A DNA stretch of 64,000 bases from Deltaproteobacteria bacterium (lineage in GTDB: Bacteria > UBA10199 > DSSB01 > JACPFA01): positions 1 to 64,000 of the forward strand of contig JACPFA010000024.1 in assembly GCA_016183235.1 (NCBI GenBank), written 5' to 3'. A model generated the notes under the pieces. It was not told the origin of the DNA. It worked only from the letters and a program-made list of their open reading frames with translations, and did not search any database. This document shows positions 14,859-41,334 of this stretch, one piece after another. The position numbers were made by a program, and so were the translations under genes. The stretch's first letter is position 1, and each line of letters starts with the position of its first letter.

Positions 14859-14869
14859 AATGATCTTTC

Positions 14870-18405: not shown

Positions 18406-18410
18406 AAAAC

Positions 18411-24886: not shown

Positions 24887-24894
24887 AATTGAAA

Positions 24895-25455
24895 CTAGCG
24901 TAAAGTGGAAAGATATTGGCGCATCTCAGGGCCATCCCACTCAATGGCTCCTACAATTTTGCGAACCATATTTAAATTTTTGTCGATGATAATCGTTTCA
25001 GGCACTCGGATGATATTAAACTTTTCCTGCGAAATAACCATTTCTTTGTCCCAAACGATATGCACATTGGGGCCCTGTAACACCGCACTATAATCTTTTT
25101 CAAATTGGTTGAGAAATTTTTTTATTTCGTCGGTTGAAGTGTCATTGGAAATAGCCACCAGTTCTAAATCACCCCCAAATTCAAGGGCCAATTTCATTAA
25201 CGAAGGAAACTCTTGCAGACAAGGGCCACACCATGAGGCCCAAAAATTTAATAATATAATTTTGCCTTTTAGTTTTTCGAGTGAAAGCTGGCTATTATCT
25301 AATTGAGTAAAGGTTACGGTAGGGGCCGGGCGGTTCTGCCAATGCCACTTGGGAATTTGGGGTTCATGCGTATCTTCAACAATCACGCCGGTGTGGTAAA
25401 AACCCCAAACGACTACAATAACAAAAACTGAAAAGGTTATAATCCATTTCGCCAT
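24895..25455 (-). CDS. TlpA/ResA-like thiol-disulfide protein
   Basis: A 186-residue protein with one N-terminal membrane anchor (about 5-22) and a periplasmic thioredoxin fold. The active site is WASWCGPC (C76, C79). The later VPETIIID segment carries the cis-proline loop (RVPET). In Ccs systems such a protein keeps apocytochrome CxxCH thiols reduced before haem attachment. It overlaps the 3' end of ccsA by 19 bases, confirming that it belongs to this maturation operon. Confidence 0.88.
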   Translation of the reverse strand: MAKWIITFSVFVIVVVWGFYHTGVIVEDTHEPQIPKWHWQNRPAPTVTFTQLDNSQLSLEKLKGKIILLNFWASWCGPCLQEFPSLMKLALEFGGDLELVAISNDTSTDEIKKFLNQFEKDYSAVLQGPNVHIVWDKEMVISQEKFNIIRVPETIIIDKNLNMVRKIVGAIEWDGPEMRQYLSTLR

Positions 25456-27509
25456 GGTTTAACTCGACGTCGCTTATTTAAAAAATAAAAAACCAAACCG
25501 AAAAGTAACTCGCCGACACAAAAGAGTGCAAGGTTGGTGGCGATGTTTTGGGTAAAACCATAAGAATGCAAGCCAACATTTAAGAGGTTCACCCCAAACC
25601 AAGCGAGGGCAACAATAATATTGATGATCACCATCCCCAACGCAAACCCTAAGGCCTTGATCTGCCCTGAAATACGGCCGTGCAATAACCAAATGAGCCA
25701 AAGCACAATGAGTAAAGCCCCATTTTCTTTAGGGTCCCAGCCCCAAAAGCGGCCCCAGGATTGATCGGCCCAAATACCTCCTAAAATAGTACCAAACAAG
25801 GAAAAGAAAAGGGCGAACAAGGCGATACCCATCATGGCTTGGTAAAGTTCTTCTAAACGGCTTTCTTTGGTAGAAGGCAATAAACGGCGGATCAAATAAA
25901 CATGGCCCACCACGCCACCCACAAAAGAACAACCATAGCCGATCGAAATTGTCACCACGTGGGTGGCTAACCAAAAATTAGTATTGAGCACAGCCACCAA
26001 CATCCCCATGGTGTCGCCATCGCTCGCATAGGCATTGCCCAAGAAATGCAGCGTTGCCCCCACCACCGTTGCGATCAAAATGCCCAGCCCATTTTTACGT
26101 TTTGATTCGAGGATAATGCCAAACACACTCGCAATCAAACCCACAAACACGATCGATTCGTAAAGGTTGCTGACGGGTGGCCTAGCCATAATGATAATGC
26201 GCAACACCACGCCGGCCAGATGAAGCGCGCCACCTAGCAAGAGAACCATAAAAGCCAAGAACCTTGCCTTTTTCTCCCAAGCAATCCAGCTTAGGGTGAG
26301 CAAAAGAAACGCTAGAATATAAAAACTTAAACTTTTGGTAAAAAGATCGAGATGATTGTAACGAACCTCTAAATTTAAAATGGAAGCTGAAAAAACCCCT
26401 TCAGGGAAATTGAGGGTGTATTGCGAAATAGCCGCGGAGGCCTGTTTAATTTTTGTTGCATCTTGTTGTTTAACCGCATAGGCCAAGTCTTTCCAAAACC
26501 CTAAATACTTTGCGCTCTCAGGCGAACCCTGCCCTTGCAAAACCAAAGCCCAGGGAGAAAACCATTCTTCAGCATGGCCTTGCCATTGCGGTGGAAAGAT
26601 ACGAAAAATTTCTGACTGCCCACCCTGCCTTATTTGAAACATTTGAAAAGACAAGTGCGTCACTTCTTTTTCTTCGTCACTCACCGCAGCACCTTTTTTA
26701 GCCTTGATAGCCTCCATCTTTTTTTGCAAAAGTTGATCGACCCGCAGCATTTCCATGTAGTTGTAATCTTTTTCGGCTTCTAAACCCAATTCAGCGGCCA
26801 GCTTGGTCGAATGAATTTTAAATTGCGGAGTGATTAATGAAAATGAATTGCTCAAATCGTAATAATTCAAAACCTTAAAATACAATTGGGCCAATTGGTT
26901 TTGAGCCGGGGTGCGTTCTTCTTCGCTCTTGCGATGAATACTCGTAAGGGTGTCTTGAATTTTCGCCAAGGCATTTTTGACTTCTAAAAAAGAATATTTT
27001 TTGCTTTCCCGCCTGGGCAATTCAAGCGCTGCCAACACCTCAGGGTTTTTGATATCAAAGATTTCTCTTTGATAGGCCGATTCTTGGTCAAACAACACTT
27101 CCCCTAACCAATCGAGCGCCCTTAAATCTTTAAGGGAACTTTTGCCATAGAGCGGCAAGAGATTCACTCGCGCAAAGGTATCTAGGGGTTTAAGCCTGCC
27201 TTCATGCAACACGGGGATATTCCCCAACGGCAAATAAGACAAAGGCTCAGCCCTAGCTTGGGGAGATAAAAAAATTGCTAATATAAATGTCACCCCTAAG
27301 AAAATTTTTCTAAAGCGGGCTGAGGCTTGCAGGGGTTTGTCCCTGTCGCTTCGCTCAGGATAAACTCCGGCTTCCATATCCATGGATATGATGCCATGGA
27401 AGCCGAGACTTTGAGTGCGTCCGGCGGCCGTAACCGCCGGACGACACGGACCCCGGAAAGCCTCAGCCCGCTTCAGAAAAATTTTCTTAGGAGTCACCTT
27501 TATTCTCAT
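25437..27509 (-). CDS. ccsA: cytochrome c maturation protein CcsA (with inserted N-terminal element)
   Basis: A 690-residue CcsA/ResC. A periplasmic N-terminal half (about 85-390) is followed by about eight helices with the haem-handling WWD motif WADQSWGRFWGWDPKENGA (about 580-600) and conserved histidines. CcsA pairs with ResB to export and attach haem to CxxCH sites. The start ATG overlaps the resB stop by 4 bases. Oddity: residues about 7-72 are encoded by a 197-base inverted-repeat element, so the natural signal sequence (RKIFLGVTFILAIFLSPQARA) is pushed inward. Whether this longer N-terminus is tolerated, or translation restarts internally, is open. Confidence 0.88.
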   Translation of the reverse strand: MRIKVTPKKIFLKRAEAFRGPCRPAVTAAGRTQSLGFHGIISMDMEAGVYPERSDRDKPLQASARFRKIFLGVTFILAIFLSPQARAEPLSYLPLGNIPVLHEGRLKPLDTFARVNLLPLYGKSSLKDLRALDWLGEVLFDQESAYQREIFDIKNPEVLAALELPRRESKKYSFLEVKNALAKIQDTLTSIHRKSEEERTPAQNQLAQLYFKVLNYYDLSNSFSLITPQFKIHSTKLAAELGLEAEKDYNYMEMLRVDQLLQKKMEAIKAKKGAAVSDEEKEVTHLSFQMFQIRQGGQSEIFRIFPPQWQGHAEEWFSPWALVLQGQGSPESAKYLGFWKDLAYAVKQQDATKIKQASAAISQYTLNFPEGVFSASILNLEVRYNHLDLFTKSLSFYILAFLLLTLSWIAWEKKARFLAFMVLLLGGALHLAGVVLRIIIMARPPVSNLYESIVFVGLIASVFGIILESKRKNGLGILIATVVGATLHFLGNAYASDGDTMGMLVAVLNTNFWLATHVVTISIGYGCSFVGGVVGHVYLIRRLLPSTKESRLEELYQAMMGIALFALFFSLFGTILGGIWADQSWGRFWGWDPKENGALLIVLWLIWLLHGRISGQIKALGFALGMVIINIIVALAWFGVNLLNVGLHSYGFTQNIATNLALFCVGELLFGLVFYFLNKRRRVKPWRNGL
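27295..27491. repeat. palindromic element inside ccsA
   Basis: Two 33-base arms (27295-27327 and 27459-27491) are inverted copies with one mismatch; each carries AGCCTCAGCCCGCTT followed by AGAAAAATTTTCTTAGG. The 131-base loop holds two smaller dyads (GGCTTCCAT/ATGGAAGCC and TCCGGCGG/CCGCCGGA). The element lies within the first 72 codons of ccsA and keeps the reading frame open. Confidence 0.8.
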
Positions 27510-28651
27510 CGCGATTTTGCCTTAAAAATAAGTTTGGGAACTTGAATGAGCAAATGAACCAATAACCCAATGCACATGATCAAACTCGAAATATAAGGAA
27601 ATAGCCTGCCCACATTTTTCACCACCGCTAAAACCGTGGTTTCTTGCCCATCACCTTCAATAAAAGAAGCTTGAAAGAAGGTATAATTTTTATACCGCAA
27701 GGGCTGATTCATTTGAATCACACTGCGTTGCTGAATGCCTTCATCAATCAGTGTGACAACTGATTTGTAACTTCGCGCTTTATTGGTACCAGGGTAAATT
27801 TGTTTTTCAAAATCGATCAAATGAATGCGAAACGGCAAATAGGTTCTGGCCCTTCTGATTTCTAATTCATAAATTTTACCACCCACCCGCAGGGTTTGGG
27901 CAACCGGCATGAACTCTAGCAAGGCATAGGTCCCATTGGTTAAGGTATCAGCCCCATCGATTTTAAAAAATATCCCAGCACGGTTACGCTCGTCTTCTTT
28001 ATCTAAGGGAAGTGACGCCAGATCAAAATTTTTAGCAAAACCACGGTAAGACAAATCGGCTGGTTGATTGCGACGAATCGGGTCACAATTTTTGCAAAAA
28101 CTTAACACTTGGATTTTAAAAGGCAGTAGATCGGTTTTTAAAACCGAACCGGGTTTCAACCAACCTTGGGTAAAATTAGTTTCTTGGTCACTATCTTCGG
28201 GTGAAGTATCCCTCACCACCAATTCTACGTTATGATAATCTCTCACAAAGTTAGAAGTCGCCCCTTCTTGAATCACCATACTACCTTCGGTACTAAACCC
28301 TGCAGTAAGAAAAGCCCCCACCAGCAACAATAAAACCCCCAGATGGGTAATAATAATTCCCAAGTTTTCTTTCTTCCAAACACTTTTAAAGATTAAAAAG
28401 AAAACTAAATTAATAAAAATAATCCCTAACGTTGTATAACCACCCGGCAAGGGCGCCGGCCCAAACCATAAAATAAAAGAAGAAAAATATTGTTGTTGGG
28501 CTTGAAACAACCCAACATATCTTTGCGCAATAGTCCCTACCACCACCAAGACCATTAGCCAAAAGAGACAATAGAAAACAATTTCGGTTTGAGTTAAAAA
28601 TTCAGCGATGTTTTGAAGAATTTTTTTTAATTTGGAGCGACGAACGGTCAT
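27506..28651 (-). CDS. resB: ResB/Ccs1-like cytochrome c maturation protein
   Basis: A 381-residue ResB family protein. Helices are at about 15-35, 60-75 and 95-112, then a large periplasmic domain (about 118-340) and a last helix (about 345-370). The family segment LLLVGAFLTAGFSTEGSMVI is recognisable, as is QMNQPLRYKNYTFFQASF before the final helix. ResB binds haem with CcsA and presents apocytochrome. It is the second gene of the maturation operon and overlaps ccsA by 4 bases. Confidence 0.85.
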   Translation of the reverse strand: MTVRRSKLKKILQNIAEFLTQTEIVFYCLFWLMVLVVVGTIAQRYVGLFQAQQQYFSSFILWFGPAPLPGGYTTLGIIFINLVFFLIFKSVWKKENLGIIITHLGVLLLLVGAFLTAGFSTEGSMVIQEGATSNFVRDYHNVELVVRDTSPEDSDQETNFTQGWLKPGSVLKTDLLPFKIQVLSFCKNCDPIRRNQPADLSYRGFAKNFDLASLPLDKEDERNRAGIFFKIDGADTLTNGTYALLEFMPVAQTLRVGGKIYELEIRRARTYLPFRIHLIDFEKQIYPGTNKARSYKSVVTLIDEGIQQRSVIQMNQPLRYKNYTFFQASFIEGDGQETTVLAVVKNVGRLFPYISSLIMCIGLLVHLLIQVPKLIFKAKSR

Positions 28652-28666
28652 CTTTAATCAATACCT

Positions 28667-29281
28667 TTATCTTTTGGCAAGCGATTGGCAAAGACTCACA
28701 AACTTACTTTGATTATAAACAAGAGTTTCTTCAGGGCCTGCCATTTTTACAAAAACAACTTGATCGGCCATAGCAATCGAGGCCACAAAAATCGCAGCAC
28801 TGGGATTTGCATCGTTGATAATTTTAAACCAAGCAAAAGGCCCCAAGGCCCCCTTGGCTCGTTGGGTAACTTTTTCTAACTCCCCTTCATTCAAGGGGCC
28901 CAAACCCACTTGCTCACGCCACCGATTCACATTAGCGATCACCCCACCGGCCTGCCCTGCCAAGACCACAATTGAAACATCCGCAGCACTGTCTGGGTTC
29001 CCATCTTTTCCTGGTGCCATAAAACTGGCCAACCGTATGGACGAACTCGAGGGTTTTTCTTGCCAATCTTGAGGGGTTTTCCAATGCAAGGTGCCATGTC
29101 CTTGGGCTTGACCTTGACTAATGGTTAGCTCAGGTGAAGATTGACCATGAGGAGAAGACATCGAGGTAGGTGGTTGAACCTCTTTAGGAACCGAGTGAGT
29201 TTTGACCGATCGCCCATCTTGGCAAGCCGTTAATAAGCCCATAGCCACAGACAAGGCTAAACCACATAAGATTATTCGCAT
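28667..29281 (-). CDS. lipoprotein heading the cytochrome maturation operon
   Basis: A 204-residue lipoprotein with lipobox LLTACQDG (Cys about 20), a Ser/Gln-rich linker, and a domain starting LHWKTPQDWQEKPSSSSIRL with the later stretch VNRWREQVGLGPLN. This family of unknown function often appears as a small periplasmic or outer-membrane protein. RBS GGAAGGAT is well placed. It is 15 bases before resB, so it is the first gene of the operon. The gap to the divergent 13-haem cytochrome gene contains an FNR-like dyad that could serve both directions. Confidence 0.75.
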   Translation of the reverse strand: MRIILCGLALSVAMGLLTACQDGRSVKTHSVPKEVQPPTSMSSPHGQSSPELTISQGQAQGHGTLHWKTPQDWQEKPSSSSIRLASFMAPGKDGNPDSAADVSIVVLAGQAGGVIANVNRWREQVGLGPLNEGELEKVTQRAKGALGPFAWFKIINDANPSAAIFVASIAMADQVVFVKMAGPEETLVYNQSKFVSLCQSLAKR

Positions 29282-29401
29282 TTTTTGTAGATCCTTCCAT
29301 TTTTCTTAACAGGCTTTGTGGCCATATCATCCTCATTTTAGGAAGTAAAGACCTAGGATAAGAATTCCCCTACTGTCTCTGCAAAACATCATATCCTGAG
29401 A

Positions 29402-29413
29402 TGATTTGCATCA
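29402..29413. promoter_or_regulatory. FNR/CRP-like dyad, site 1
   Basis: TGATTTGCATCA (TGAT-N4-ATCA, perfect dyad with flanking A/T) lies in the divergent gap, 25 bases before the 13-haem cytochrome start and 120 bases before the maturation operon start. The close spacing to the rightward gene fits repression there or activation leftward. Same pattern as three further sites in this locus. Confidence 0.55.
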
Positions 29414-29438
29414 TTTGTTTTTTTTAGGGATCTGCAAC

Positions 29439-32348
29439 ATGCTTAATAGCGCCATGCTACCCAGAAGAGGGCGTTTGCCCTATTGTCAATTTTTGCCGTT
29501 TTTGTTTTTGTTGATCCTTTTTATAGGCCCTTATGGTTGTGGTAGCGGTTCTAATGAACCCGCGGATTCTGACCCAACCGGAACGGGTGAGACCGAACCC
29601 GAGGGTGGTTCAACCGGCGCCGAAACGGGCACTTCGGGTAAAAAACCCTGGACCTATCACCCTGAAAATTGGGCCGACAAAACCGCTCACCCGACTGCCT
29701 TTGCCTCTGATCCAGAATCTTGCAAAACCTGTCATGGCAATAACTACGACAAAGTCATGCAAGGTAAAAGCTGTTACACTTGCCACAACTTTCCCCATAA
29801 CAATGTGTGGAAAGATATTCATGGCCAACAACTTAAACCCGAAGCCATCCAAGATTGTCAGAAATGTCACGTATCTAGTAATAATGTGGCCCTTGAAGGC
29901 ACACCCCAATCTTGTAACAGTTGTCACGACAAACTGAGTTGCCTTGATTGTCACGATCAAGCTAAAGCCGGGCGTCGCAAGATTGTAGGCCCAGGCGGTG
30001 ATTTTTCTCTTGGCCAACATCATGCCAGTGGAGAGGTCAATCAAGAAACTTGCCTCACTTGTCATTATATGAACGACCACTGGTCAGGGGTGGTAAAACT
30101 TAAAGACCCCGATGCAGGCGTTGGCATGGTTTATAATTTCAACCCTCAAGACCCTGAAAGTGTTGAGGCTTTCTGTGTCAACTGCCATGACCAAGACGGT
30201 GCCACCGCCCACGGTGGATTAACCCCCTTTAACGATGGCAAAACGGTGCCTAACATTAAGGGTGTAGAAGGTAGCCTGTGGGCTGATTCCGCTCACAACC
30301 AAATTAATTATCAAGCCAATAGCAACAAACCCTTGTCGTGTTTAGGCGACGGCATCAAAACCGGGTGTCACAGCAATGGTCACGGCTCTGATATTGAAAA
30401 GATGTTGAGCGTGGCCGGGCCCATCAACAACTTGTGCGATCAATGCCACACTGATGAAAAAGTTTTGAACCAAGCCTTATCTGGAAATGAACTGGCCAAC
30501 AACATCCAACAGGCCTTTAGTTTAGAAGGCGATACGGCAAGCATGCACAATTTAGGGACCCAGTTTACCATCAACGCAGGGGACCCCAACGAGAAAACCT
30601 TTACCCTGCAATGTACCACCTGCCACAACCCACACGTGGTCACGGGGAAATATTGGGATGCCGAAGCCGGCAAATCTCCCATCACACGACCTGATTTAGC
30701 AAGCGATCCAACCGAAAATCCCCGCGCCATGGGCGACACCCTTTGGGGCGTGAGCAATGACCAAAAAATGAGTAGTTACGCAGGGGTAGCGCTCGCTTCA
30801 TCGTTCAATCAAGCGGGGAATTTTCAAGATGCCGCTGGCGGCCCTGGCAATCAGTTGCCCGACTATGTCACTTTTTGCACCGATTGCCACGCGGAGCCAG
30901 GTCCCTCACCTTTTGGGCTAAATGATGGCCCTGGATGGGACGATTCGAAAAAAAGTTGGGATAGCGACCCCCATGGGCGTTACCCAGCCAACTTACCTGC
31001 CTCTAAATGCCCTAACGACCCGGCCTGCGGTGATGCAACGGAGGGTTGGCCCAAAACGCCGTTGGGCAAGGGTTTTATGCAACGGCTGCTTCCACCCTAC
31101 GATCAAGGCAAAAGAATAGCCGGTTTTAATTACGTGCTCTCGTGCACCGATTGTCACGAGGCCCATGGCTCTGTTAATAAAAACTTGATTCGTTCCAACC
31201 TTAATGGCACCTCTACTCCAGATTCAAAATGGAATAACCTTTGCCTGACTTGCCATAAAGTAGACCAGTACATGATCAGCATGTCAGGAATTGGTCAGCA
31301 TTGTGAGAGCTGTCACGGTTACGGCCAAAACCCACCGCAGGCTTATATGCCGGGCTCCATCCATGGAATGGAGAAAAATAAAAATGGGGATATTAACAAC
31401 CCCAATAACACCACGCTGATTTTTAATTCTGAACTCGTCGCCTATTTGCGCTTTGATCGAGTTAATTCAAATAATCCGAATCTCAATCTCTATGCCTTGG
31501 AAGATTCAGGACATTACCATCAAAATGCCCGCGGCTTTGACCTCAATTCACCCACCGATGATAACACCACCCATGTGGATGTGAATTTTGGCCACCTCCA
31601 TGTTTTAAGCCAAATCACTCAGCAATGCGTGGCGCTGGGGGCTTTGGAAGATAAAAATGCCTATGGTTGCAGTGTTAACCTCGATGGTCAAAATGATTAT
31701 TTGGAATTAGGTGTAACTCATAGTGTTTGGCCACCCTCGGTGTTTGGGCCTCATCAATTTTTTGAAATGAAAAACAATGCCTCGGTGATGGCTTGGGTTT
31801 TTCCCAATGTTGCCCCGATTCAAAACTTTACCATCCTCTCCAATGCCAGTGAAGACCCTACTGTTAATTATAGCCTCTACCTAATCCCTGATGGAGAGGC
31901 GATGCGAGTTGTGTTTAAAGTAGCAGTTGGCAACAATACCTGGCGCGGGGCCTGCAGCAATGTCGCCATCCCGGCTAATGGCTGGTCGCACGTAGGTGCT
32001 ACCTTTGATGGCGACGCTGTCCAAAAAATAAAGATCTATATTAATGGGGTGCAAAGTACGGCTGCCGATCCTAATGTCTGTGGCTTGTTGCAACCCAACG
32101 CTCAAGAAACGCAAATCCAGGCTGGCCAAGATGAAGCCACCTGTGTGCCTTTTACCGTTGGGGCAAGCTCCAATGAACAACCCTGCATTCAAGAATGGCC
32201 ACCACCGCCTATGGGTGCCTTTAACTGGAACACCGGCAGTAATTTCTTTAATGGTAGGATCGACGAAGTCAAAGTTTACAATACAACCCAAGAAGATTTT
32301 CAAAGTTTAATGGCTCCGCCCTTGCCACCGCCTTGGTTCCCCAATTGA
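29439..32348 (+). CDS. 13-haem cytochrome c lipoprotein with LamG domain
   Basis: A 969-residue protein from the ATG at 29439, chosen for its AGGGA RBS 8 bases upstream. The signal peptide ends at GPYGCGSGS, probably a lipobox. The region to about residue 640 contains 13 CxxCH motifs (CKTCH, CYTCH, CQKCH, CNSCH, CLDCH, CLTCH, CVNCH, CDQCH, CTTCH, CTDCH twice, CLTCH, CESCH). A CLGDGIKTGCH segment could be a non-standard site. Residues about 665-965 form a LamG/concanavalin-like domain (YLRFD, NLDGQNDYLELG, NASVMAWVFP, GRIDEVKVYN). Expected at the cell surface, where the LamG part may bind glycans or minerals. First gene of the electron-transfer locus. Confidence 0.88.
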   Translation: MLNSAMLPRRGRLPYCQFLPFLFLLILFIGPYGCGSGSNEPADSDPTGTGETEPEGGSTGAETGTSGKKPWTYHPENWADKTAHPTAFASDPESCKTCHGNNYDKVMQGKSCYTCHNFPHNNVWKDIHGQQLKPEAIQDCQKCHVSSNNVALEGTPQSCNSCHDKLSCLDCHDQAKAGRRKIVGPGGDFSLGQHHASGEVNQETCLTCHYMNDHWSGVVKLKDPDAGVGMVYNFNPQDPESVEAFCVNCHDQDGATAHGGLTPFNDGKTVPNIKGVEGSLWADSAHNQINYQANSNKPLSCLGDGIKTGCHSNGHGSDIEKMLSVAGPINNLCDQCHTDEKVLNQALSGNELANNIQQAFSLEGDTASMHNLGTQFTINAGDPNEKTFTLQCTTCHNPHVVTGKYWDAEAGKSPITRPDLASDPTENPRAMGDTLWGVSNDQKMSSYAGVALASSFNQAGNFQDAAGGPGNQLPDYVTFCTDCHAEPGPSPFGLNDGPGWDDSKKSWDSDPHGRYPANLPASKCPNDPACGDATEGWPKTPLGKGFMQRLLPPYDQGKRIAGFNYVLSCTDCHEAHGSVNKNLIRSNLNGTSTPDSKWNNLCLTCHKVDQYMISMSGIGQHCESCHGYGQNPPQAYMPGSIHGMEKNKNGDINNPNNTTLIFNSELVAYLRFDRVNSNNPNLNLYALEDSGHYHQNARGFDLNSPTDDNTTHVDVNFGHLHVLSQITQQCVALGALEDKNAYGCSVNLDGQNDYLELGVTHSVWPPSVFGPHQFFEMKNNASVMAWVFPNVAPIQNFTILSNASEDPTVNYSLYLIPDGEAMRVVFKVAVGNNTWRGACSNVAIPANGWSHVGATFDGDAVQKIKIYINGVQSTAADPNVCGLLQPNAQETQIQAGQDEATCVPFTVGASSNEQPCIQEWPPPPMGAFNWNTGSNFFNGRIDEVKVYNTTQEDFQSLMAPPLPPPWFPN

Positions 32349-32360
32349 TATCATCATTGA

Positions 32361-32372
32361 TGATCTCAATCA
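32361..32372. promoter_or_regulatory. FNR/CRP-like dyad, site 2
   Basis: TGATCTCAATCA lies in the 124-base gap before the monohaem cytochrome gene. Its centre is 61.5 bases before the start point predicted from the TCTAAT box at 32416, the spacing of a class I activator site. Confidence 0.6.
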
Positions 32373-32393
32373 TATAAACACATGATTTGTTTG

Positions 32394-32421
32394 TTTGCCT
32401 TCTGGCTTCGTTGGATCTAAT
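32394..32421 (+). promoter_or_regulatory. predicted promoter of the monohaem cytochrome gene
   Basis: A -10-like TCTAAT at 32416-32421 (5 of 6 to TATAAT) has a poor -35 (TTTGCC, 32394-32399), as expected if an activator bound at 32361-32372 is needed. Confidence 0.45.
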
Positions 32422-32472
32422 GTGGGCACCGCTTAGTTAAGAATAATCTTATTTATCAAATGGAGGATTGCG

Positions 32473-32838
32473 ATGAGAAATCATAAATCAAAACCAGTCA
32501 TGCTCATGAGCCTACTGGCTTTGTTCTCTTTTTTACTCAGTAGTTCTGTTTATGCGGGTGCTAAAGACATTTTTGTTAAACAAAAATGCAATAAGTGCCA
32601 CGAATGGAAAGCTCAAGGGGTTGAGAAATTACCTGCTGAACCAGACGCCCCACCCCCCGACCCCAAGTTTAAACCTGACCTCTCCAAGTTGTCAGACAAA
32701 GTAACGGGCGACAAAAAAGAATACCTAAAAAAGTGGTTGAATAAAGAAGTTCAACGCGATGGCAAAGACCACAAGAAACGTTTTGCCGGCACTCCAGAAG
32801 AACTTGAAACGCTGGTGAGTGCACTAGCCGCACAATAA
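32473..32838 (+). CDS. monohaem cytochrome c
   Basis: A 121-residue exported cytochrome. The signal peptide ends LSSSVYAGA. The only haem site is CNKCH (about residues 36-40). The sequence after it is Pro/Lys-rich, with a conserved-looking FAGTPEELETLVSAL end typical of small class I-like cytochromes; a Met ligand is not obvious. A GGAGG RBS precedes the ATG. It is followed directly by an intrinsic terminator, so it can be made in excess over the downstream membrane genes. Likely a soluble periplasmic carrier between the NrfD modules and the multihaem proteins. Confidence 0.82.
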   Translation: MRNHKSKPVMLMSLLALFSFLLSSSVYAGAKDIFVKQKCNKCHEWKAQGVEKLPAEPDAPPPDPKFKPDLSKLSDKVTGDKKEYLKKWLNKEVQRDGKDHKKRFAGTPEELETLVSALAAQ

Positions 32839-32852
32839 GCGAAAATATTCAG

Positions 32853-32889
32853 AAGCTAGGCAGGATGATCAAGCCTGCCTAGCTTTTTT
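32853..32889 (+). terminator. intrinsic terminator after monohaem cytochrome
   Basis: A perfect 12-base stem AAGCTAGGCAGG / CCTGCCTAGCTT with a 9-base loop is followed by a T run. It sits 14 bases after the cytochrome stop and 19 bases before the nrfD-like start. Confidence 0.85.
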
Positions 32890-32908
32890 ATTTTGAGAAT
32901 CGTGGACC

Positions 32909-34165
32909 ATGCCCACCTATTTTTTGTTTTGGAAAGATTTAATCAAACAAGTCATCTTCGGCCCCAAACTTTATTATGCCTGGCTTGGGTTTTTATCGAT
33001 TTTCATTGTCATTGGGATTGCAGGCTATATTCAACAATTTCAGCATGGCCTTATTGTCACCAACATGACCGATCAAGTTTCTTGGGGTGCCTACATCGCC
33101 AATTTTACCTACATCGTAGGTTTGGCCGCAGCCGCCGTCATGCTGGTCATCCCAGCTCATATTTATAAATTTAAATGCATCAAAGAAATCGTGCTGATTG
33201 GTGAGCTCTTGGCCGTTGCCTCCATTATTATGGCCATGTTGTTTGTAATGGTTGATATGGGCCGACCCGATCGCCTTTGGCACCTCATCCCCGGTTTAGG
33301 CCGGATGAACTGGCCCATGTCGATGCTCGCTTGGGACGTCTTGGTGCTCAATGGATATTTGCTTTTGAATTTGCATATTCCCGGCTACGAACTTTACAAA
33401 GACTATAAAGGTGAACCTCCTTCAGAGGCTTATCACAAACCTTTTATTTTCATTTCTATTTTCTGGGCCATTAGTATTCATACCGTCACCGCGTTCTTAT
33501 ACCAAGGCTTAGGGGGTAGACCGCATTGGAACTCCGCGGTGATTGCCCCACGATTTTTGGCCTCTGCCTTTGCCGTAGGTCCCTGTTTTATTCTTTTGAC
33601 CTTACAAGTCGTCGAAAAATTTAGCCGCTTTCACGTGGAAAAAGAGGCTTATCATATTTTAAAAAGAATTATCGCGGTGGCGATGATCATCAATTTGTTC
33701 TTACTCATGTCTGAAGTCTTCAAAGAATTCTACACCGATTCAGGGCATAGCGCTTCGGCCAAATATTTATTTTTGGGGCTGCACGAAAACCACTTACTAG
33801 TTCCTTTCATTTGGACGGCTATTGGTTTGAATATTTTTTCCACCCTAACTTTCGCGATCCAAAAATTAGGGAGGAACCAAATCATCATTAATGTTGCCGC
33901 CGTGGCGGCCATTGTGGGGGTTTGGATCGAAAAGGGAATGGGGTTGATTGTCCCTGCCTTTATTCCTTCTCCCTTGGGCGATGTTGTGGAATACACCCCA
34001 TCTCTGGTCGAAATTCAGGTGTGTGCCGGCATTTGGGCCATTGGGCTTTTCCTGCTGACGATTTTTCTTAAAGCCGCCATCCCCATTCACACCGGCGAAT
34101 TAAGATTGCAACGCGAAGAATCCTACCCCGGAGAATTCTCAGATAAGCCCTGGGAAAGACTCTGA
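32909..34165 (+). CDS. nrfD: NrfD-like quinone-interacting membrane subunit (first copy)
   Basis: A 418-residue polytopic protein with about ten helices, of the NrfD/PsrC family. It matches the second copy at 35901 along its length (both have GYIQQ, HGLIVTN, DQVSWGAYI, VVDMGRPDRLWHL, GLGGRPHWN and IWIEKGMGLIVP or VWIEKGMGLIVP). NrfD proteins take electrons from or give them to quinone and pass them to a periplasmic ferredoxin. It begins right after the terminator with no space for its own strong promoter, so expression probably depends on read-through. Confidence 0.87.
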   Translation: MPTYFLFWKDLIKQVIFGPKLYYAWLGFLSIFIVIGIAGYIQQFQHGLIVTNMTDQVSWGAYIANFTYIVGLAAAAVMLVIPAHIYKFKCIKEIVLIGELLAVASIIMAMLFVMVDMGRPDRLWHLIPGLGRMNWPMSMLAWDVLVLNGYLLLNLHIPGYELYKDYKGEPPSEAYHKPFIFISIFWAISIHTVTAFLYQGLGGRPHWNSAVIAPRFLASAFAVGPCFILLTLQVVEKFSRFHVEKEAYHILKRIIAVAMIINLFLLMSEVFKEFYTDSGHSASAKYLFLGLHENHLLVPFIWTAIGLNIFSTLTFAIQKLGRNQIIINVAAVAAIVGVWIEKGMGLIVPAFIPSPLGDVVEYTPSLVEIQVCAGIWAIGLFLLTIFLKAAIPIHTGELRLQREESYPGEFSDKPWERL

Positions 34166-34173
34166 AAATTGGC

Positions 34174-34185
34174 TGATCTTAATCA
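34174..34185. promoter_or_regulatory. FNR/CRP-like dyad, site 3
   Basis: TGATCTTAATCA lies in the 81-base gap before the tetrahaem cytochrome gene, centred 67 bases before its ATG. Confidence 0.55.
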
Positions 34186-34246
34186 TATGAGTGGCTGAGC
34201 ATACCCATTGAGCTAAAACCCCATTGAGCTTAATTTAAAAGAAGCT

Positions 34247-34849
34247 ATGAAACTCAACTATCGAAAACTAACGGGCTTGGCCATGGGCTTAGCTTTTATA
34301 GTTTCAACCTACCAACCGCTGTGGGCCGAGCCCCCAACCCCTGAATCAACCGAAAGCGCCCCTGAAAGTCTTCCGAGTTTTCCCGTCATCCCACGCATCC
34401 CTAAACTTAACATGTACCCTTGCACCGACTGTCATATGGGAGACAAAGATTACAACAATCAAGAAAGAGAATTAAAAGAAGAACACATTGAAATGGCCGC
34501 CCATTTCAAAAATGGCGATAAAGACCAACGTTGGTGTCACACCTGTCATCACGAAAAAGACTATCTTCATTTAACCGCACAAAACGGCCAGATCGTAACT
34601 TTTAACGAAGCTTATGTGGTTTGTGGCCAATGCCATGGCACAATTTTACGCGACTGGAAAAAGAACATCCATGGAAGAAGGGTTGGTAAATGGGTTAGCC
34701 CGGCCGAGGCCCAGGCCACTAGCTGTACCGAATGCCACAATTCTCACGGGCCCAAATTTAAAGCCTTAAAACCTATGCCACCCCCTGTACTGCCGAGAGG
34801 GAAAAAGGCCCCGAAGGAACATAAGGTAGAACATCAAGCAGGGCATTAG
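34247..34849 (+). CDS. tetrahaem cytochrome c
   Basis: A 200-residue exported protein: signal peptide to about residue 27 (PLWAEPP), a Pro/Glu-rich spacer, then four CxxCH motifs (CTDCH, CHTCH, CGQCH, CTECH). Extra histidines nearby (CHHEKD, HNSHG) could be the distal ligands. The tail is Pro/Lys-rich. It resembles the small cytochromes paired with NrfD/ferredoxin modules in Cbc-type menaquinol oxidoreductases. It is 8 bases before the ferredoxin gene, so the two are one unit. Confidence 0.85.
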   Translation: MKLNYRKLTGLAMGLAFIVSTYQPLWAEPPTPESTESAPESLPSFPVIPRIPKLNMYPCTDCHMGDKDYNNQERELKEEHIEMAAHFKNGDKDQRWCHTCHHEKDYLHLTAQNGQIVTFNEAYVVCGQCHGTILRDWKKNIHGRRVGKWVSPAEAQATSCTECHNSHGPKFKALKPMPPPVLPRGKKAPKEHKVEHQAGH

Positions 34850-34857
34850 GAGCTTTT

Positions 34858-35799
34858 ATGATGGATGAAAAAAAAGAAAATAGAAGTTCAGAGCTTTTAG
34901 CAAGGGCCCTAAATCAAGAAGTGCCAAGACGTTCTTTTCTTAAAGGTCTTGCCGTAGGAACGGCCCTGGCAACGGTTGCCCCCAGCAAAACAGCAGAGGC
35001 CTTTTCGCTAAGTGATTTTTTCAAAAAACATTATAAAGAATTATCGCCCCAAGAAAAAACCGCCATGCTGGCTCGCATCGAGGCCGAAACCAAAAAACGT
35101 TACGGCGTGGATGTAAAAGTTGAAGACCCTCCACCGATGAATGGCGTTGAGTTTGTTTATTGCCTCAATCTTTCTAAATGTATCGGTTGCCGAAAATGTG
35201 TGTATGCCTGCGTTAAAGAAAACAACCAATCCCGGGATCCGCAAATTCAATATATTAAGGTGCTGGAAATGCCCAAGGGCTCACTCGATGTGCATGAAGG
35301 CAACATGTATTACGATCATGCAGAAGTCCCGCAAAAAGACAAATTTTATATGCCTGTGCAGTGCCACCAATGTAAGCATCCGCCCTGCGTCAAGGTGTGC
35401 CCGGTAGAAGCCACCTGGAAAGAACCCGACGGCATTGTGGTGATCGACTACGATTGGTGCATTGGTTGCCGTTATTGTGAGGCCGCTTGCCCCTACGAGG
35501 CTCGCCGGTTCAATTTTACGGATCCCAAAATTCCACCCGAAGAAATCAACCCCAATCAAGGTTATCTATCAAACCGTATTAGGCCACGCGGTGTCATGGA
35601 AAAATGCACCTTCTGCCTACACCGCACCCGCAAAGGCTTATACCCAGCTTGTTTGGAGGTATGCCCCACCGGTTCTCGAAAATTTGGAAATATCTTAGAC
35701 CCCAACAGCGAAGTGCGAGCGGTGATTCAACACAAAAGAATTTTTGTTTTAAAAGAAGAATTAAACACCATGCCACGATTCTTATACTTCTTTGATTAA
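34858..35799 (+). CDS. Tat-exported 4x[4Fe-4S] ferredoxin (HybA/NrfC/PsrB type)
   Basis: A 313-residue periplasmic electron-transfer protein. The Tat signal is RRSFLKGLAVG (about 26-36). Four cysteine groups follow: CIGCRKCVYAC, CHQCKHPPCVKVCP, CIGCRYCEAACP and CTFCLHRTRKGLYPACLEVC, shortened in the last case. This is the classical 16-cysteine arrangement. It would link the NrfD subunits to cytochromes. It lies between the two NrfD copies; the second is separated by a palindromic repeat at 35804. Confidence 0.9.
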   Translation: MMDEKKENRSSELLARALNQEVPRRSFLKGLAVGTALATVAPSKTAEAFSLSDFFKKHYKELSPQEKTAMLARIEAETKKRYGVDVKVEDPPPMNGVEFVYCLNLSKCIGCRKCVYACVKENNQSRDPQIQYIKVLEMPKGSLDVHEGNMYYDHAEVPQKDKFYMPVQCHQCKHPPCVKVCPVEATWKEPDGIVVIDYDWCIGCRYCEAACPYEARRFNFTDPKIPPEEINPNQGYLSNRIRPRGVMEKCTFCLHRTRKGLYPACLEVCPTGSRKFGNILDPNSEVRAVIQHKRIFVLKEELNTMPRFLYFFD

Positions 35800-35803
35800 T
35801 GAA

Positions 35804-35881
35804 TGGATGCCGGGTCCCCGGATCAAAGTCCAGGGCAGGCTTGCCCGGCATGACGTCATCCCGGGCCTGACCCGGGATCCA
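35804..35881. repeat. intergenic palindromic repeat (78 bases)
   Basis: Two hairpins in tandem: GATGCCGGG/CCCGGCATGAC and GTCATCCCGGG/CCCGGGATCCA. The ends are inverted copies with one mismatch (TGGATGCCGGG, CCCGGGATCCA). It resembles GC-rich intergenic REP-like repeats. Located between the ferredoxin and second NrfD genes. Confidence 0.75.
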
Positions 35882-35900
35882 TATATGACTAGGAAATCTT

Positions 35901-37118
35901 ATGCGTACCTATCTTATTTTTTGGAAAGCCATGCTTCGCCAGTCTGTCGTGGGTTCTAGGGGTTATTATATTTGGCTGCTGATTTTGCTCTTTTTTATTG
36001 CCCTGGGTGTTGTTGGCTATATCCAACAATTGCGGCATGGTCTTATTGTCACAAATTTAAGTGATCAGGTCTCATGGGGCGCCTATATCTCTAACTTTGC
36101 TTTTGTGGTTGGCATAGCCGCCGCTGCGGTCATGTTGGTCATTCCGGCTTATGTTTACAAATTAAAATCGGTTAAAAAAATTGTGTTGGTGGGTGAGCTC
36201 TTGGCGGTGGCAGCTATTATTGTGGCCCTCTTATTTGTCGTTGTTGATATGGGCCGCCCCGATCGCCTCTGGCACCTCCTCCCCATTTGGGGTCGGGTGA
36301 ACTGGCCACAATCGATGTTGGGCTGGGATGTCATCGTGCTCAACGGCTATTTACTTTTAAATTTTCACATCCCCGCCTACGAACTTTACAAAAAATATAC
36401 AGGCCATCCCCCTTCCGATCTTTATTACAAACCGTTTATTGTCATTTCCATTTTCTGGGCGGTGTTTTTACTTTTGGTCGAGGCCTTTTTGTACGTAGGT
36501 TTGGGAGGAAGGCCTCACTGGAACGCAGCGATCCTCGCACCCCGATTTTTTACGGCGGCTTTTTCAGTAGGGCCTGCCTTTATTATTTTAACTTTGCAGC
36601 TGCTTGATAAATACACCCATTTAGATGTGGAACAAGAAGTTTATCTTGTGCTTAAAAGAATCGTCGCCGTGGCCCTACTTTTCCACCTCATTTTGCTCGT
36701 AGCAGAAGTTTTCAAAGAATTTTATACCGATTCAACCCACGGCGAATCAGCTCGTTATCTTTATTTTGGTTTACATGGCTACCATGGGCTTGTTCCCTTC
36801 ATCTGGACTGCCATTGCTTTAAATGTTTTTGCCACCTTAAGTTTTGCCATCCCCAAATTCAGTCGCAACATGGTACTTATTAACATCGCTGCGGTAGCGG
36901 CCTTCATTGGTATTTGGATTGAAAAAGGCATGGGGCTTATTGTGCCTGGTTTTATTCCCACTCCCTTAGGCGACATTGTTGAATACTTCCCTTCATGGAT
37001 TGAACTACAAATTTGTGTTGGCATTTGGGCCACGGGGCTATTACTCTTCACCCTCTTCCTCAAAGCTGCCATCCCCATTGAAACAGGGGCATTGCGATTG
37101 AAAAACTTAAAAAGCTAA
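35901..37118 (+). CDS. nrfD: NrfD-like quinone-interacting membrane subunit (second copy)
   Basis: A 405-residue polytopic NrfD/PsrC family protein, clearly paralogous to the first copy. It has the same order of GYIQQLRHGLIVTN, DQVSWGAYISNF, VVVDMGRPDRLWHLLP and FIPTPLGDIVEYFP. Differences cluster in the loops and in the helix around residue 190, where it has FLLLVEAFL. With one ferredoxin gene between the two copies, the pair may form a heterodimeric membrane part, as ActC/ActF do in alternative complex III, or two alternative modules. It follows the repeat element by 19 bases. Confidence 0.87.
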   Translation: MRTYLIFWKAMLRQSVVGSRGYYIWLLILLFFIALGVVGYIQQLRHGLIVTNLSDQVSWGAYISNFAFVVGIAAAAVMLVIPAYVYKLKSVKKIVLVGELLAVAAIIVALLFVVVDMGRPDRLWHLLPIWGRVNWPQSMLGWDVIVLNGYLLLNFHIPAYELYKKYTGHPPSDLYYKPFIVISIFWAVFLLLVEAFLYVGLGGRPHWNAAILAPRFFTAAFSVGPAFIILTLQLLDKYTHLDVEQEVYLVLKRIVAVALLFHLILLVAEVFKEFYTDSTHGESARYLYFGLHGYHGLVPFIWTAIALNVFATLSFAIPKFSRNMVLINIAAVAAFIGIWIEKGMGLIVPGFIPTPLGDIVEYFPSWIELQICVGIWATGLLLFTLFLKAAIPIETGALRLKNLKS

Positions 37119-37123
37119 ACACC

Positions 37124-37135
37124 TGATGAAGATCA
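37124..37135. promoter_or_regulatory. FNR/CRP-like dyad, site 4
   Basis: TGATGAAGATCA lies in the 115-base gap before the porin gene. A -10-like GAGAAT at 37162-37167 places the start point about 43 bases from its centre, close to class II activator spacing. Confidence 0.58.
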
Positions 37136-37233
37136 TGAGTTTTTATTGTTTAAATCATTTAGAGAATTTTTAGTTGTGTGGTATTGAATAAGTGTAGTTA
37201 CTCAAGTCAATCCCAAAATGCAAAGAAAGAAGC

Positions 37234-38589
37234 ATGCGTTTGTTGATAAAGCTTAAAAACTTTCTCTCTCGTAGCCTTGCCCTTCTCCTCTTGATAAGCG
37301 TGGTCAGTTTGGCTAAGGCCGAAGAAAAAAAGAAACATCTCGTTTCCGGTTCTCTCACCAATAAGTACAAATTTCGAGCCACCAACGGTTTTTCCGATAA
37401 TGACTTAGAATCTATCTTAACTTTAAATGTTGGCAACCCTCGCGCCAATCGCTTCTCTTTCTCCGCCCAAGGTGGTGGTATTTTTGATCTCGATGGTAAA
37501 AAAACCGATTCTTATTTTTCGGATATCTACAATAGCTTTCCCGATGCGGCCGTTGGCCGGCTTTATTACGCCTATCTTAATATCAACAAACTTGGCCCCA
37601 TCGATCATGTGCGGGTTGGCCGCCAGCGTTTGTTTCTGTTAGAATCTCATTATTTCGATGGCCTCTCCATTGAAACGGTTCCCTTGGCGGGTTTTGTACT
37701 CACCGTCTTTGGCGGTACCCCCGTTCACCTCTATGAAAATCAAATCGGCATGGATTGGGGTGATTGGATGGCCGGTGCCTCTTTACAATGGAACCCCATT
37801 AGCAAACTGCGCCTGCGTTTTGATTACACCCATTTAAAAGATCAAACCTCTGGCTTTCGCGTGAGTCAAGGTGATTTAGAAGATGATCTGTTTGGAATCT
37901 CGTTTTGGGCCAACCTTACCAAAAACATCGAACTCTATGGCCGTTTTACCTCTTTCTCTGATGAAGTCCGCGATGCTGAAGCCGCTCTGAACTTTCAATT
38001 CCCCGAGCAAGACTTAACCGTTCGCCTCAATTATTTTAGACTGCTCAAAGGCTACGACATTCGCGTTACCGATTGGGACGCCTTTGGCATTGCCGGTTCC
38101 TATGTCCCCTACAATCAAGCTGGCCTAAGTGTCACCAAGGGCTTGGGGGAAAAGTTTAGCGTCGATGGCGGGTTTGTGCTGCGCAAGCTCGACAACAATC
38201 AAACCGCTTCTGCCTTTAACCACGGCTACCTCAGGGGCTTTGTGTCACTCGGCAGTCAAGACTTTCTTGCCAAAGGTCTTGAAATGAACGCCACCTTTGA
38301 TTATTACCACGGCATCGATAACACCTTGAAAAACGACTACTACGGTGGCTCTTTCGGCATTAGCCAACAACTTTTGAAAAAACGTTTGAAGCTGGGCGCT
38401 GGCACGGCCTTTTATCTCTATCGCTACAATCTCTTGACTGGCAACGAATCTGACAATGTGCAAACCTATTTTGCCAATGTCGAAGCCAAGATCTTGAAAA
38501 ATCTCAAGGCCAAGGCCGCTTACGAATTTGAAGACAATGACTTTGATAACTTTCACGAAATGAAGTTGAGTTTAACATGGGATTTCTAA
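37234..38589 (+). CDS. outer-membrane beta-barrel porin of a porin-cytochrome conduit
   Basis: A 451-residue protein with a signal peptide (LLISVVSLAKAEE). The body is strand-rich with alternating aromatic residues, for example RLRFDYTHLKD, LYGRFTSF and VRLNYFRLLKGYD, and it ends with the C-terminal aromatic pattern SLTWDF of outer-membrane proteins. It overlaps the 9-haem cytochrome gene by 13 bases. The porin plus periplasmic cytochrome plus outer-membrane cytochrome order matches porin-cytochrome conduits (MtrCAB, Geobacter Omb/Oma/Omc) for electron export. No sequence identity to those was tested. Confidence 0.8.
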   Translation: MRLLIKLKNFLSRSLALLLLISVVSLAKAEEKKKHLVSGSLTNKYKFRATNGFSDNDLESILTLNVGNPRANRFSFSAQGGGIFDLDGKKTDSYFSDIYNSFPDAAVGRLYYAYLNINKLGPIDHVRVGRQRLFLLESHYFDGLSIETVPLAGFVLTVFGGTPVHLYENQIGMDWGDWMAGASLQWNPISKLRLRFDYTHLKDQTSGFRVSQGDLEDDLFGISFWANLTKNIELYGRFTSFSDEVRDAEAALNFQFPEQDLTVRLNYFRLLKGYDIRVTDWDAFGIAGSYVPYNQAGLSVTKGLGEKFSVDGGFVLRKLDNNQTASAFNHGYLRGFVSLGSQDFLAKGLEMNATFDYYHGIDNTLKNDYYGGSFGISQQLLKKRLKLGAGTAFYLYRYNLLTGNESDNVQTYFANVEAKILKNLKAKAAYEFEDNDFDNFHEMKLSLTWDF

Positions 38590-39293
38590 AACTTAGAGTC
38601 ATCTTACTACTTTTAATCTCGGTCACTTTTTTGATGGCCAATAAGAATTGTAAGCGTTCTATCACCTGGGGTGACACCAATAAAAATTTCGTTTCTAAAT
38701 GGGAAGACGAACATAAAGACGTTAATTCCAACACCTATTGCGGTGAATGCCACGATGATGCTCGTTCTTGGAAAAAATCCCCTAATGTGCATGACAGCCA
38801 CGGCATTGCTTGGGAGCGCGAACACGGTAAATTCTCGCAGGCCAAATATGGCTTTCAACAACAAAATGTCTGTTCGCTCTGCCATACCGATTCTTCTTGC
38901 ACCTCCTGTCATATGCAAGAACCACCGCAAAACCACACCATGTTCTGGAAACAACGCGGCCATGGCTTGGCAGTCGGCCTCGATCGCAACAAATGCGCCA
39001 CCTGCCACTACAGTGCCGATTTTTGTGAACGTTGCCACTCAGAAACCGAACCCAGGGATCACAATGCCCTTTGGGGTTCTAGGCAAAACAATCACTGCTT
39101 GAGCTGCCATGTGCCCGTGTCTTCTTCTGGCGCTCAAAAATGTGCCGTCTGTCATCAAAGCACGCCCTCGCATAGCTCGGCGCCAGCTCAACCTAACAAT
39201 GCTATTCATGTGTCTGGGGTTAATTGCCGCACGTGTCATAACCCAGCACCTCACGCTGATAATGGAGACTCTTGTGAAACCTGTCATCAATAA
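38577..39293 (+). CDS. 9-haem periplasmic cytochrome c
   Basis: A 238-residue protein with a signal peptide to about residue 21 (ISVTFLMANKN). Nine CxxCH motifs are visible: CGECH, CSLCH, CTSCH, CATCH, CERCH, CLSCH, CAVCH, CRTCH, CETCH. That is one haem per about 24 residues, a density suited to a wire-like protein. Start overlaps the porin stop by 13 bases, so the two are co-translated. Its expected place is plugged into the barrel from the periplasmic side. Confidence 0.88.
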   Translation: MGFLKLRVILLLLISVTFLMANKNCKRSITWGDTNKNFVSKWEDEHKDVNSNTYCGECHDDARSWKKSPNVHDSHGIAWEREHGKFSQAKYGFQQQNVCSLCHTDSSCTSCHMQEPPQNHTMFWKQRGHGLAVGLDRNKCATCHYSADFCERCHSETEPRDHNALWGSRQNNHCLSCHVPVSSSGAQKCAVCHQSTPSHSSAPAQPNNAIHVSGVNCRTCHNPAPHADNGDSCETCHQ

Positions 39294-39309
39294 CTTAAAG
39301 GGGAAAACC

Positions 39310-41334
39310 ATGAACGGTGGAACCTTCAATCTAAAAAGAATATCCGGCCTATTTATAACTTATGTATTTGTGGTGTTTCTAGCGGGTTGCGGCACAACCG
39401 CCACCACCCCACAAACCACCGGCATCTTGGGTACCGCAGAAAATACCGTGGGTGATCCAGTTGTGGGCGCTCTGGTTTGTTTGATCCCAGCGAGCGCAAT
39501 CAGCGAAATTGGCCTCGACATCGACGAATTTTCTCCAACGGCCACGGATGACGAACCCTTAGAAGACTTATCAAGCAATTGCACCACAGGCACCTATCAA
39601 ACCGCTACCACCGATTCGAACGGTGATTACAGCTTTGCTACGATCACAGAGGGAACTTATTTTATTTATTTAAAGCCCGCTGATACTGATACTGGGCATC
39701 TCCCAGGCGGTAGCCTCTGCCGAACCTCACGCTATTTAAGCAATACCGCGCTTGATCTTGATATTGAAGTATCCACCGTGCCTTCTTCTTCCGCAACTTA
39801 CGTTGGTTCTACCACCTGTCTTTCCTGCCACACCAACAAAGAAACCGTTAAACACACGGGGCATCAATTGGGCCTACGCAATCCCGGAGAAGATGGCGGA
39901 AACCAAGATAAAAGCACCTTTGAAACCGCTACGGGTATTACTAATTTCGATGCAGCTTTAGATAGATTTGAAGACGACACCATAGTCTATTTTTATGATT
40001 ACGATAGCACGCGTGGCTTTGACAAATTTAAAACCTCAGAGACCGATCCGGGCACCACTTGTACCTTGGGTGACTCCTCCGATACCACGGGTGTTTTCTT
40101 TACGGTCCGACTTTTTAAAGACGGCTCCACGTACAAGATGACCTTAACGAATGTGTGTAATCCTTCTGACACCAATTCTCCTGCCACTTATGATGTCGAT
40201 TTCAGCTATGGTGGGGGTGTTTATAAACAACGTTATTTTACCTTACTCACGGTGGGTGATAGCAATAATATTAGTGGTAGTAGTGGTTACCACGTCCTTC
40301 CCCTCCAATACCATCAAGAAGGCAGTGATTCTTATGGGCCACGCACTCGCAAGATTTGGCGTGATTACAATGCCTATTCCGGCTGGTATACTTTTAGCAC
40401 TCAACTTTTGAGAACCCCTGCCAATTCTAAATCCTTTGACAACAACTGTGCGGGTTGTCATTTCACCGGTTATACTTTGACCGGCAATAGCACGGATGGC
40501 TACATGGCAACGGCTGTCGCTGACACCAACGGTCATATGTGGTACGGCACTAAACAAGAAATCAACACCGGTTGCGAGGTTTGCCATGGCCCGGGTTCTG
40601 AACATGTGGCTGCAGGTGGTTCGATTGTCTCCCCAGGCTTTCTTACCCCCGAACGTGAAGTCATGATTTGTAATCGTTGTCATACCCGGCCCAAGGGCGT
40701 TGCGGGTACCGATGTGCCTGATGATGCAAGTGGTGGGCTTATGCTTCCCGGTCACACGCGGAGCGAATTTTTTTCGACCTACACCAACGGTCAATATGAT
40801 ACAAACTTAGGGAGTGATTTGTTGACCGATCGTGATCAACACTCCAACTCACATCATCAGCAAGGCACTGACTTTGTACGATCAACCCATTATAAGAATC
40901 GAACTCAATTACTTACCTGTTCGAGCTGTCATGATATGCATGGCACCGATTATGCCCGTGGCTTAATTGCTTCCCAAGATGACAATTCCATCTGCGCAAG
41001 TTGCCACAGCGATAAAACTTCTGACCTCACCGGCCACACCGGTGACGTGCTAGGGGTTTCAACCGATATGGGTGCCAGGTGTATCGATTGCCACATGAAT
41101 AAATACGCCAAGTCAGGGTCGGGTCGCCCGGGTAATGGCAATACCACCGGGCTCAGCGCTGGGTATTGGGAAAATGATATTACTTCCCACTTGTTTAAGG
41201 TGCCGTTAAAAAGTGTATCGAAGTCAGATGGAACTTTTCTCTTGCTCGGGGTAGCCCCCCTTAATGCGCCTCTGCCCATTCCCTTTACCGATAGTTGCGG
41301 CAGCTGCCACGACAGCGACCTTTCTGATAATTAA
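39310..41334 (+). CDS. 8-haem outer-membrane cytochrome c lipoprotein
   Basis: A 674-residue protein from the ATG at 39310, which has an AAAGGGG RBS and is followed by a lipoprotein signal (FVVFLAGCGTTATT). An in-frame opening from 39109 lies within the previous gene and is not used. Residues about 30-130 look like a carboxypeptidase-regulatory-like beta domain (TTDSNGDYSFATITEGTYFI). Eight CxxCH motifs follow: CLSCH, CAGCH, CEVCH, CNRCH, CSSCH, CASCH, CIDCH, CGSCH. GCEVCHGPGSEHV is typical of the cytochrome c554/OmcB-like group. Probable terminal surface cytochrome of the conduit. Confidence 0.87.
   Translation: MNGGTFNLKRISGLFITYVFVVFLAGCGTTATTPQTTGILGTAENTVGDPVVGALVCLIPASAISEIGLDIDEFSPTATDDEPLEDLSSNCTTGTYQTATTDSNGDYSFATITEGTYFIYLKPADTDTGHLPGGSLCRTSRYLSNTALDLDIEVSTVPSSSATYVGSTTCLSCHTNKETVKHTGHQLGLRNPGEDGGNQDKSTFETATGITNFDAALDRFEDDTIVYFYDYDSTRGFDKFKTSETDPGTTCTLGDSSDTTGVFFTVRLFKDGSTYKMTLTNVCNPSDTNSPATYDVDFSYGGGVYKQRYFTLLTVGDSNNISGSSGYHVLPLQYHQEGSDSYGPRTRKIWRDYNAYSGWYTFSTQLLRTPANSKSFDNNCAGCHFTGYTLTGNSTDGYMATAVADTNGHMWYGTKQEINTGCEVCHGPGSEHVAAGGSIVSPGFLTPEREVMICNRCHTRPKGVAGTDVPDDASGGLMLPGHTRSEFFSTYTNGQYDTNLGSDLLTDRDQHSNSHHQQGTDFVRSTHYKNRTQLLTCSSCHDMHGTDYARGLIASQDDNSICASCHSDKTSDLTGHTGDVLGVSTDMGARCIDCHMNKYAKSGSGRPGNGNTTGLSAGYWENDITSHLFKVPLKSVSKSDGTFLLLGVAPLNAPLPIPFTDSCGSCHDSDLSDN

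Follow-up and report, generated by a model that had tools for sequence, protein, structure and literature searches.

The electron-transfer locus and its four dyads

The window, by which we mean the whole stretch of 64,000 nucleotides analysed here, contains a run of cytochrome and membrane-subunit genes on the plus strand and, divergent from it, a minus-strand operon for cytochrome maturation. Gene calls came from a home-made script, and gene starts and ends are therefore approximate. The genes are as follows:

23006..29281, minus strand: divergent operon of lipoprotein, ResB-like protein, cytochrome c assembly protein, thioredoxin-like protein and P-type ATPase (the first and the last two named by inspection)
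29439..32348, plus strand: lipoprotein with 13 CxxCH motifs (multihaem cytochrome)
32473..32838, plus strand: monohaem cytochrome c
32909..34165, plus strand: NrfD/DsrP-like membrane subunit (NCBIfam DsrP, 409 bits; cut-off 350)
34247..34849, plus strand: 4-haem cytochrome
34858..35799, plus strand: DsrO-like iron-sulphur subunit (NCBIfam DsrO, 168 bits, under the cut-off of 200)
35901..37118, plus strand: second NrfD/DsrP-like membrane subunit (NCBIfam DsrP, 382 bits; cut-off 350)
37234..38589, plus strand: predicted outer-membrane barrel
38577..39293, plus strand: 9-haem cytochrome
39109..41334, plus strand: 8-haem cytochrome (called start overlaps the preceding gene)

Judged by these predicted products, the locus (29439-41334) looks like a route for electrons from quinone to the outside. 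It shares DsrP-like and DsrO-like subunits with the DsrMKJOP and Qrc type of NrfD complexes (NCBIfam) but, unlike them, combines a pair of DsrP-like subunits with multihaem lipoproteins and a predicted barrel in a single cluster. The barrel was recognized by inspection of the sequence and is given as a prediction, because Pfam and NCBIfam searches with this protein returned no match. Since the start called for the 8-haem cytochrome gene overlaps the gene upstream, the true start probably lies later. Elsewhere in the window, positions 14112-21977 hold a membrane-subunit cluster that by inspection resembles a group 4 hydrogenase or complex I relative, with a dyad of the kind described next (18381) near a gene start.

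The sequence-only reading had drawn attention to four exact TGAT-N4-ATCA dyads in the gaps of this locus, and all four were found again, at 29402, 32361, 34174 and 37124 (ranks below refer to the matrix described with protein A):

Site 1, 29402..29413: ATGATTTGCATCAT; divergent gap between the cytochrome-maturation operon (minus strand) and the 13-haem lipoprotein gene (plus strand); matrix rank 2
Site 2, 32361..32372: ATGATCTCAATCAT; centre 106.5 bases 5' of the monohaem cytochrome gene; matrix rank 10
Site 3, 34174..34185: CTGATCTTAATCAT; centre 67.5 bases 5' of the 4-haem cytochrome gene; matrix rank 4
Site 4, 37124..37135: CTGATGAAGATCAT; centre 104.5 bases 5' of the predicted-barrel gene, which has no Pfam match; matrix rank 8

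Sites 2, 3 and 4 lie between genes and begin 13, 9 and 6 bases, respectively, after the preceding stop codon. Site 1 is intergenic too, given the likelier ATG start at 29439; it was scored as genic because the gene caller chose TTG at 29406 instead, and it is entered as such in the 475-kb spacer counts given below. It is the sole dyad in the divergent gap (29282-29438), with its centre 31.5 bases from the plus-strand start and 126.5 from the minus-strand start. Two dyads beyond these four, at 11692 and 18381, bring the window total to six. Site 2 is overlapped by a second perfect inverted repeat, ATCATCA-T-TGATGAT (window 32351-32365).

Distribution of the motif within the genome and in relatives

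The four dyads are not chance occurrences. Dinucleotide shuffles of the whole window held 1.22 dyads on average and reached six in 1 of 100 cases, and in the 5.93 kb of DNA called intergenic a first-order Markov model expects 0.11 dyads whereas four were observed (a count that takes in the dyad at 11692 and leaves out site 1). A larger sample, 475 kb of the 2.61-Mb genome with the window included, was searched for TGAT and ATCA arms at spacers of 0 to 12 bases. Between genes, the four-base spacer occurred 13 times, compared with 0 to 3 times for each of the other twelve spacers (16 when summed); within genes, it occurred 18 times and was not the most frequent, the others ranging from 5 to 27. 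With the window removed, the sample held eight intergenic N4 dyads against a Markov mean of 0.83, a number matched in none of 300 simulations.

Genome-wide there are 109 N4 sites and 50 with a five-base spacer. The ratio of these two numbers was tried as a sign of the regulator and rejected, since values close to 2 occur in many genomes that lack it, probably as an effect of codon phase; it tracks possession of protein A (described below) weakly (medians 1.98 and 1.56, p 0.03). Because genomes without the regulator often have a similar ratio, the number of intergenic sites is the more reliable test.

Loci homologous to this one, with DsrO, DsrP and 4-haem cytochrome genes, were compared in four genomes of the same class but of other families (G010, G012, G014 and G029), which hold six such loci. 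A dyad precedes a cytochrome or NrfD operon in all six. Counted strictly, they contain six intergenic N4 dyads versus three for all other spacers together, and two further dyads lie at operon starts, hidden by over-long gene calls. A maturation operon at the corresponding place was seen in none of the six. In the same genome as the window, a scan of the gap of a paralogous locus on contig C47 yielded no convincing dyad (the top matrix score was 6.5), and 80 named loci from other phyla, with three intergenic N4 dyads versus 0 to 4 at other spacers, lend no support as a set. Two of these three are a lead: they come from a Nitrospirae MAG (MnB_6, locus L100) with a related NrfD gene, have the full ATGAT-N4-ATCAT form (L100:2847 and L100:5227) and lie between or before multihaem genes.

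The sequence-only reading had named two observations that would speak against it, namely a motif equally common inside genes and a lack of conservation in relatives. Neither was made: in the 475-kb sample the four-base spacer is enriched between genes with nothing comparable within them, and dyads occur in all six same-class loci and also around orthologues of protein A. The same evidence bears on two other origins of the dyads. Chance matching in AT-rich gaps draws on the fact that eight fixed bases are expected about once per 50 kb here, and that the sample's 31 matches include 18 in called genes, at background density. For the set, however, chance is refuted by the preference for one spacer, the excess between genes, the conservation in relatives and the matrix ranks, and we regard it as very improbable; weaker single sites elsewhere may be chance matches. 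The short distance of sites 2 to 4 from the preceding stops (6 to 13 bases) would also suit RNA hairpins or parts of terminators at gene ends. However, the 32-base stretches around the four sites fold no better than shuffles (z of -1.19, -0.21, 0.52 and -0.83), the arm letters are invariant and show no compensating variation, and the sites of relatives occur in divergent gaps too, so that hairpins seem to us hardly credible.

Protein A, protein B and a variant FNR box

A check for FNR/CRP homologues, proposed with the original observation, found two proteins with a Crp-type HTH in the genome:

Protein A: contig C18, 6576-7304, minus strand; PF00027 (86.8 bits) and PF13545 (71.8 bits), both above cut-off
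Protein B: contig C42, 82159-82908; Crp-type HTH, FNR-like

Protein A combines a cNMP-binding-type domain with a Crp-type HTH and is therefore a member of the CRP/FNR superfamily. Its best NCBIfam match is FnrL (106 bits, cut-off 300), and the Fnr model gives 90.9 bits (cut-off 228); because both scores fall below the curated cut-offs, A is filed as FNR-like and not as FNR. For A and B alike, the NCBIfam CRP model scores below the Fnr and FnrL models. Among the 60 genomes searched, 29 (this one included) have A or an orthologue (E below 1e-60). A small HTH-less cNMP-domain protein (C18:6061-6396) adjoins A, likewise in many genomes, and is possibly a partner or modulator.

The surroundings of the A gene are rich in dyads. 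Intergenic sites in the thirty loci of A and its relatives number 25 at N4 and 4 at the other twelve spacers together. For comparison, 25 loci of other iron-sulphur proteins, which contain less intergenic DNA, hold 2 N4 sites and 2 others, and eight loci of non-A CRP-like proteins hold 2 intergenic N4 sites and 1 other. Between A and its cNMP-domain neighbour in this genome lies a one-mismatch site (C18:6455) that is perfect in several relatives. A matrix was built from 24 A-locus sites of relatives, excluding the site from this genome (in L193). When it was applied to all positions of the sample, the four sites of the locus ranked 2, 4, 8 and 10; scores of 12 or more fell on 11 intergenic and 5 genic positions, intergenic DNA making up 11.5%.

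Protein A is the likeliest candidate for the regulator of the dyads. The suggestion of a single FNR/CRP-family regulator is thereby borne out as far as the family is concerned, with an FNR-like protein linked to the site; that there is a single one is likely, yet B is a second FNR-like protein in the same genome. The sites could instead be read by another CRP/FNR protein, for example by B or by A and B in competition, and the signal could be other than oxygen. B keeps the E..IR helix (TPETVIR), a CxxC and the C122 equivalent, and FNR is its top match in a PDB sequence search. Moreover, no close A orthologue is present in G014 and G029 (best matches 37% and 29% identity), although both have sites in their loci, and other CRP/FNR proteins may therefore read the same box. 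However, B lacks the third N-terminal cysteine, its best matches in other relatives are A orthologues, and no N4 site lies beside its gene, whereas the neighbourhood of A is full of them. We consider a reader other than A unlikely, if still to be reckoned with.

The A orthologues have a distinctive set of residues. The equivalent of Cys-122 is present in 29 of 29, and an automatic count gave three N-terminal cysteines in a CX2CX8C arrangement for 26, to which inspection added the remaining three; A thus has the four cysteines of the FNR type, with x8 instead of x5 spacing. Equivalents of Glu-209 and Arg-213 are likewise invariant (29/29), but the Ser-212 position is occupied by Ile in 28 orthologues and Val in one, so the helix of A reads E..IR and not the E..SR (Glu-209, Ser-212, Arg-213) of FNR recognition. 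This set of 29 excludes L201_4 and L206_0, which are extra proteins in A loci, and does not include L222 (39% identity). The same E..IR helix was seen in CRP/FNR-like proteins that are fused behind an apparent response-regulator receiver domain (L253 and L257, from G014:C26 and G010:C31).

The base preceding TGAT is A in 33, C in 16 and T in 1 of the 50 half-sites of A loci. It is A in 21 and C in 3 of the 24 half-sites of cytochrome loci, and the 26 half-sites of other candidates in this genome have 15 A, 8 C, 2 T and 1 G. The inner TGATNNNNATCA of the canonical FNR box TTGATNNNNATCAA is present and its outer T is rare, and the putative binding box of A can be given as MTGAT-N4-ATCAK (where M is A or C and K is T or G). 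In E. coli, CRP binds TGTGA-N6-TCACA through a helix that also has Glu and Arg. A and CRP share the superfamily and these two helix residues, but A has FNR-type cysteines and a different half-site.

In E. coli FNR, Glu-209, Ser-212 and Arg-213 provide the main contacts to TTGATNNNNATCAA (PMC4505428). Likeness to FNR of the E. coli type extends to the TGAT/ATCA arms, the four-base spacer, the helix Glu and Arg, the four cysteines, and targets in nitrate and fumarate/succinate respiration. The differences are an outer T and Ser-212 in FNR as against A or C and Ile/Val here, and a third cysteine that by alignment follows x5 in FNR but x8, three residues further on, in A. The third cysteine is also displaced, by two residues, in FnrN/FnrL of alphaproteobacteria, where PMC7713065 describes the shift as seemingly exclusive to alphaproteobacteria and E, S and R as kept; A resembles these proteins in the displacement itself but differs in its extent (three residues) and in the loss of Ser. 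The missing helix serine and the missing outer T coincide, and from this coincidence we infer that one may account for the other. The Ser-to-Ile helix change together with the outer box base would provide a clean test of a specificity change in the FNR family. Literature searches gave no match for ATGATNNNNATCAT or on the helix residues and no paper combining FNR, TTGATNNNNATCAA and extracellular electron transfer; TGATNNNNATCA occurs in published papers. What is new here is the variant box, the helix and cysteine spacing that match it, and their link with cytochrome loci throughout the class.

Candidate targets and proposed control of the locus

To our knowledge, little is known of how uncultured bacteria control extracellular-type electron transfer loci; for this one, the sequence allows a regulator, a box and candidate targets to be connected. 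Activator spacings had been claimed for site 2 (61.5 bases) and site 4 (about 43), but a consensus scan cannot tell the start points behind them from chance, with 18 sigma-70 promoter-like sites versus 18.3 in shuffles. A profile of -10-like hexamers around 25 sites, with position shuffles as the control, likewise had no offset that stands out (best z 2.28, 95% limit 3.17). Site 1 is too close to the plus-strand start (31.5 bases) for a usual activator there; its target may therefore be the divergent maturation operon, or it may mediate repression. It is better placed for the maturation operon, which it may control, than for activating the plus-strand gene.

The contexts of 85 of the 109 genome-wide sites (60 plus 25 new) were examined, and 29 of these sites were called intergenic (20/60 and 9/25). 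Eleven of the 29, and site 1 in addition, adjoin genes of respiration or central carbon metabolism, a share that is not an enrichment test because the contexts taken from beyond the 475-kb sample had been selected for containing a site; unbiased proportions come from that sample only. Three of the eleven are in the locus and two precede the narG operon. The others lie one each near a 2-oxoacid:acceptor oxidoreductase, citrate synthase, aconitase, a ferredoxin-NADP reductase-like protein, a transhydrogenase (289 bases away) and a succinate dehydrogenase/fumarate reductase (sdh/frd). The remaining 18 have neighbours without an evident respiratory role. A genome scan for sites before respiratory genes had been proposed; narG, sdh/frd, citrate synthase and aconitase genes are among those preceded by one, and sites upstream of anaerobic respiration genes (narG, sdh/frd and others) are what is expected of an FNR regulon.

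Taken together, the spacer-4 enrichment between genes, the conservation before homologous operons, the class-wide adjacency to the A gene and the conserved cysteines and helix form the computed basis for a proposal. We think it probable that an FNR-like CRP/FNR member, most likely A, binds the dyads and that the locus would be activated through it in anoxia. A would carry an iron-sulphur cluster, held by the N-terminal C-x2-C-x8-C and the central cysteine, would sense oxygen or redox state through it, and would bind the MTGAT-N4-ATCAK box as a dimer. Its targets under anoxia would be the multihaem-cytochrome/NrfD locus, nitrate reductase and parts of the citric acid cycle, all presumably activated rather than repressed. 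Counting against this proposal are the Fnr and FnrL scores below cut-off, the sites in G014 and G029, the weak tracking of A by the N4/N5 ratio, the result for the C47 locus, the -10 profile and the 18 intergenic sites beside other genes. With less assurance, we lean towards a broader reading in which A represents a re-specified FNR found across the class, marked by serine loss, an A or C in place of the outer T of the box and wider cysteine spacing, and governing outward electron transfer by multihaem cytochromes.

One further dyad, at C41:4797 (L264), lies 46 bases before genes for a small secreted protein and an MbnB/TglH/ChrH-type RiPP enzyme.
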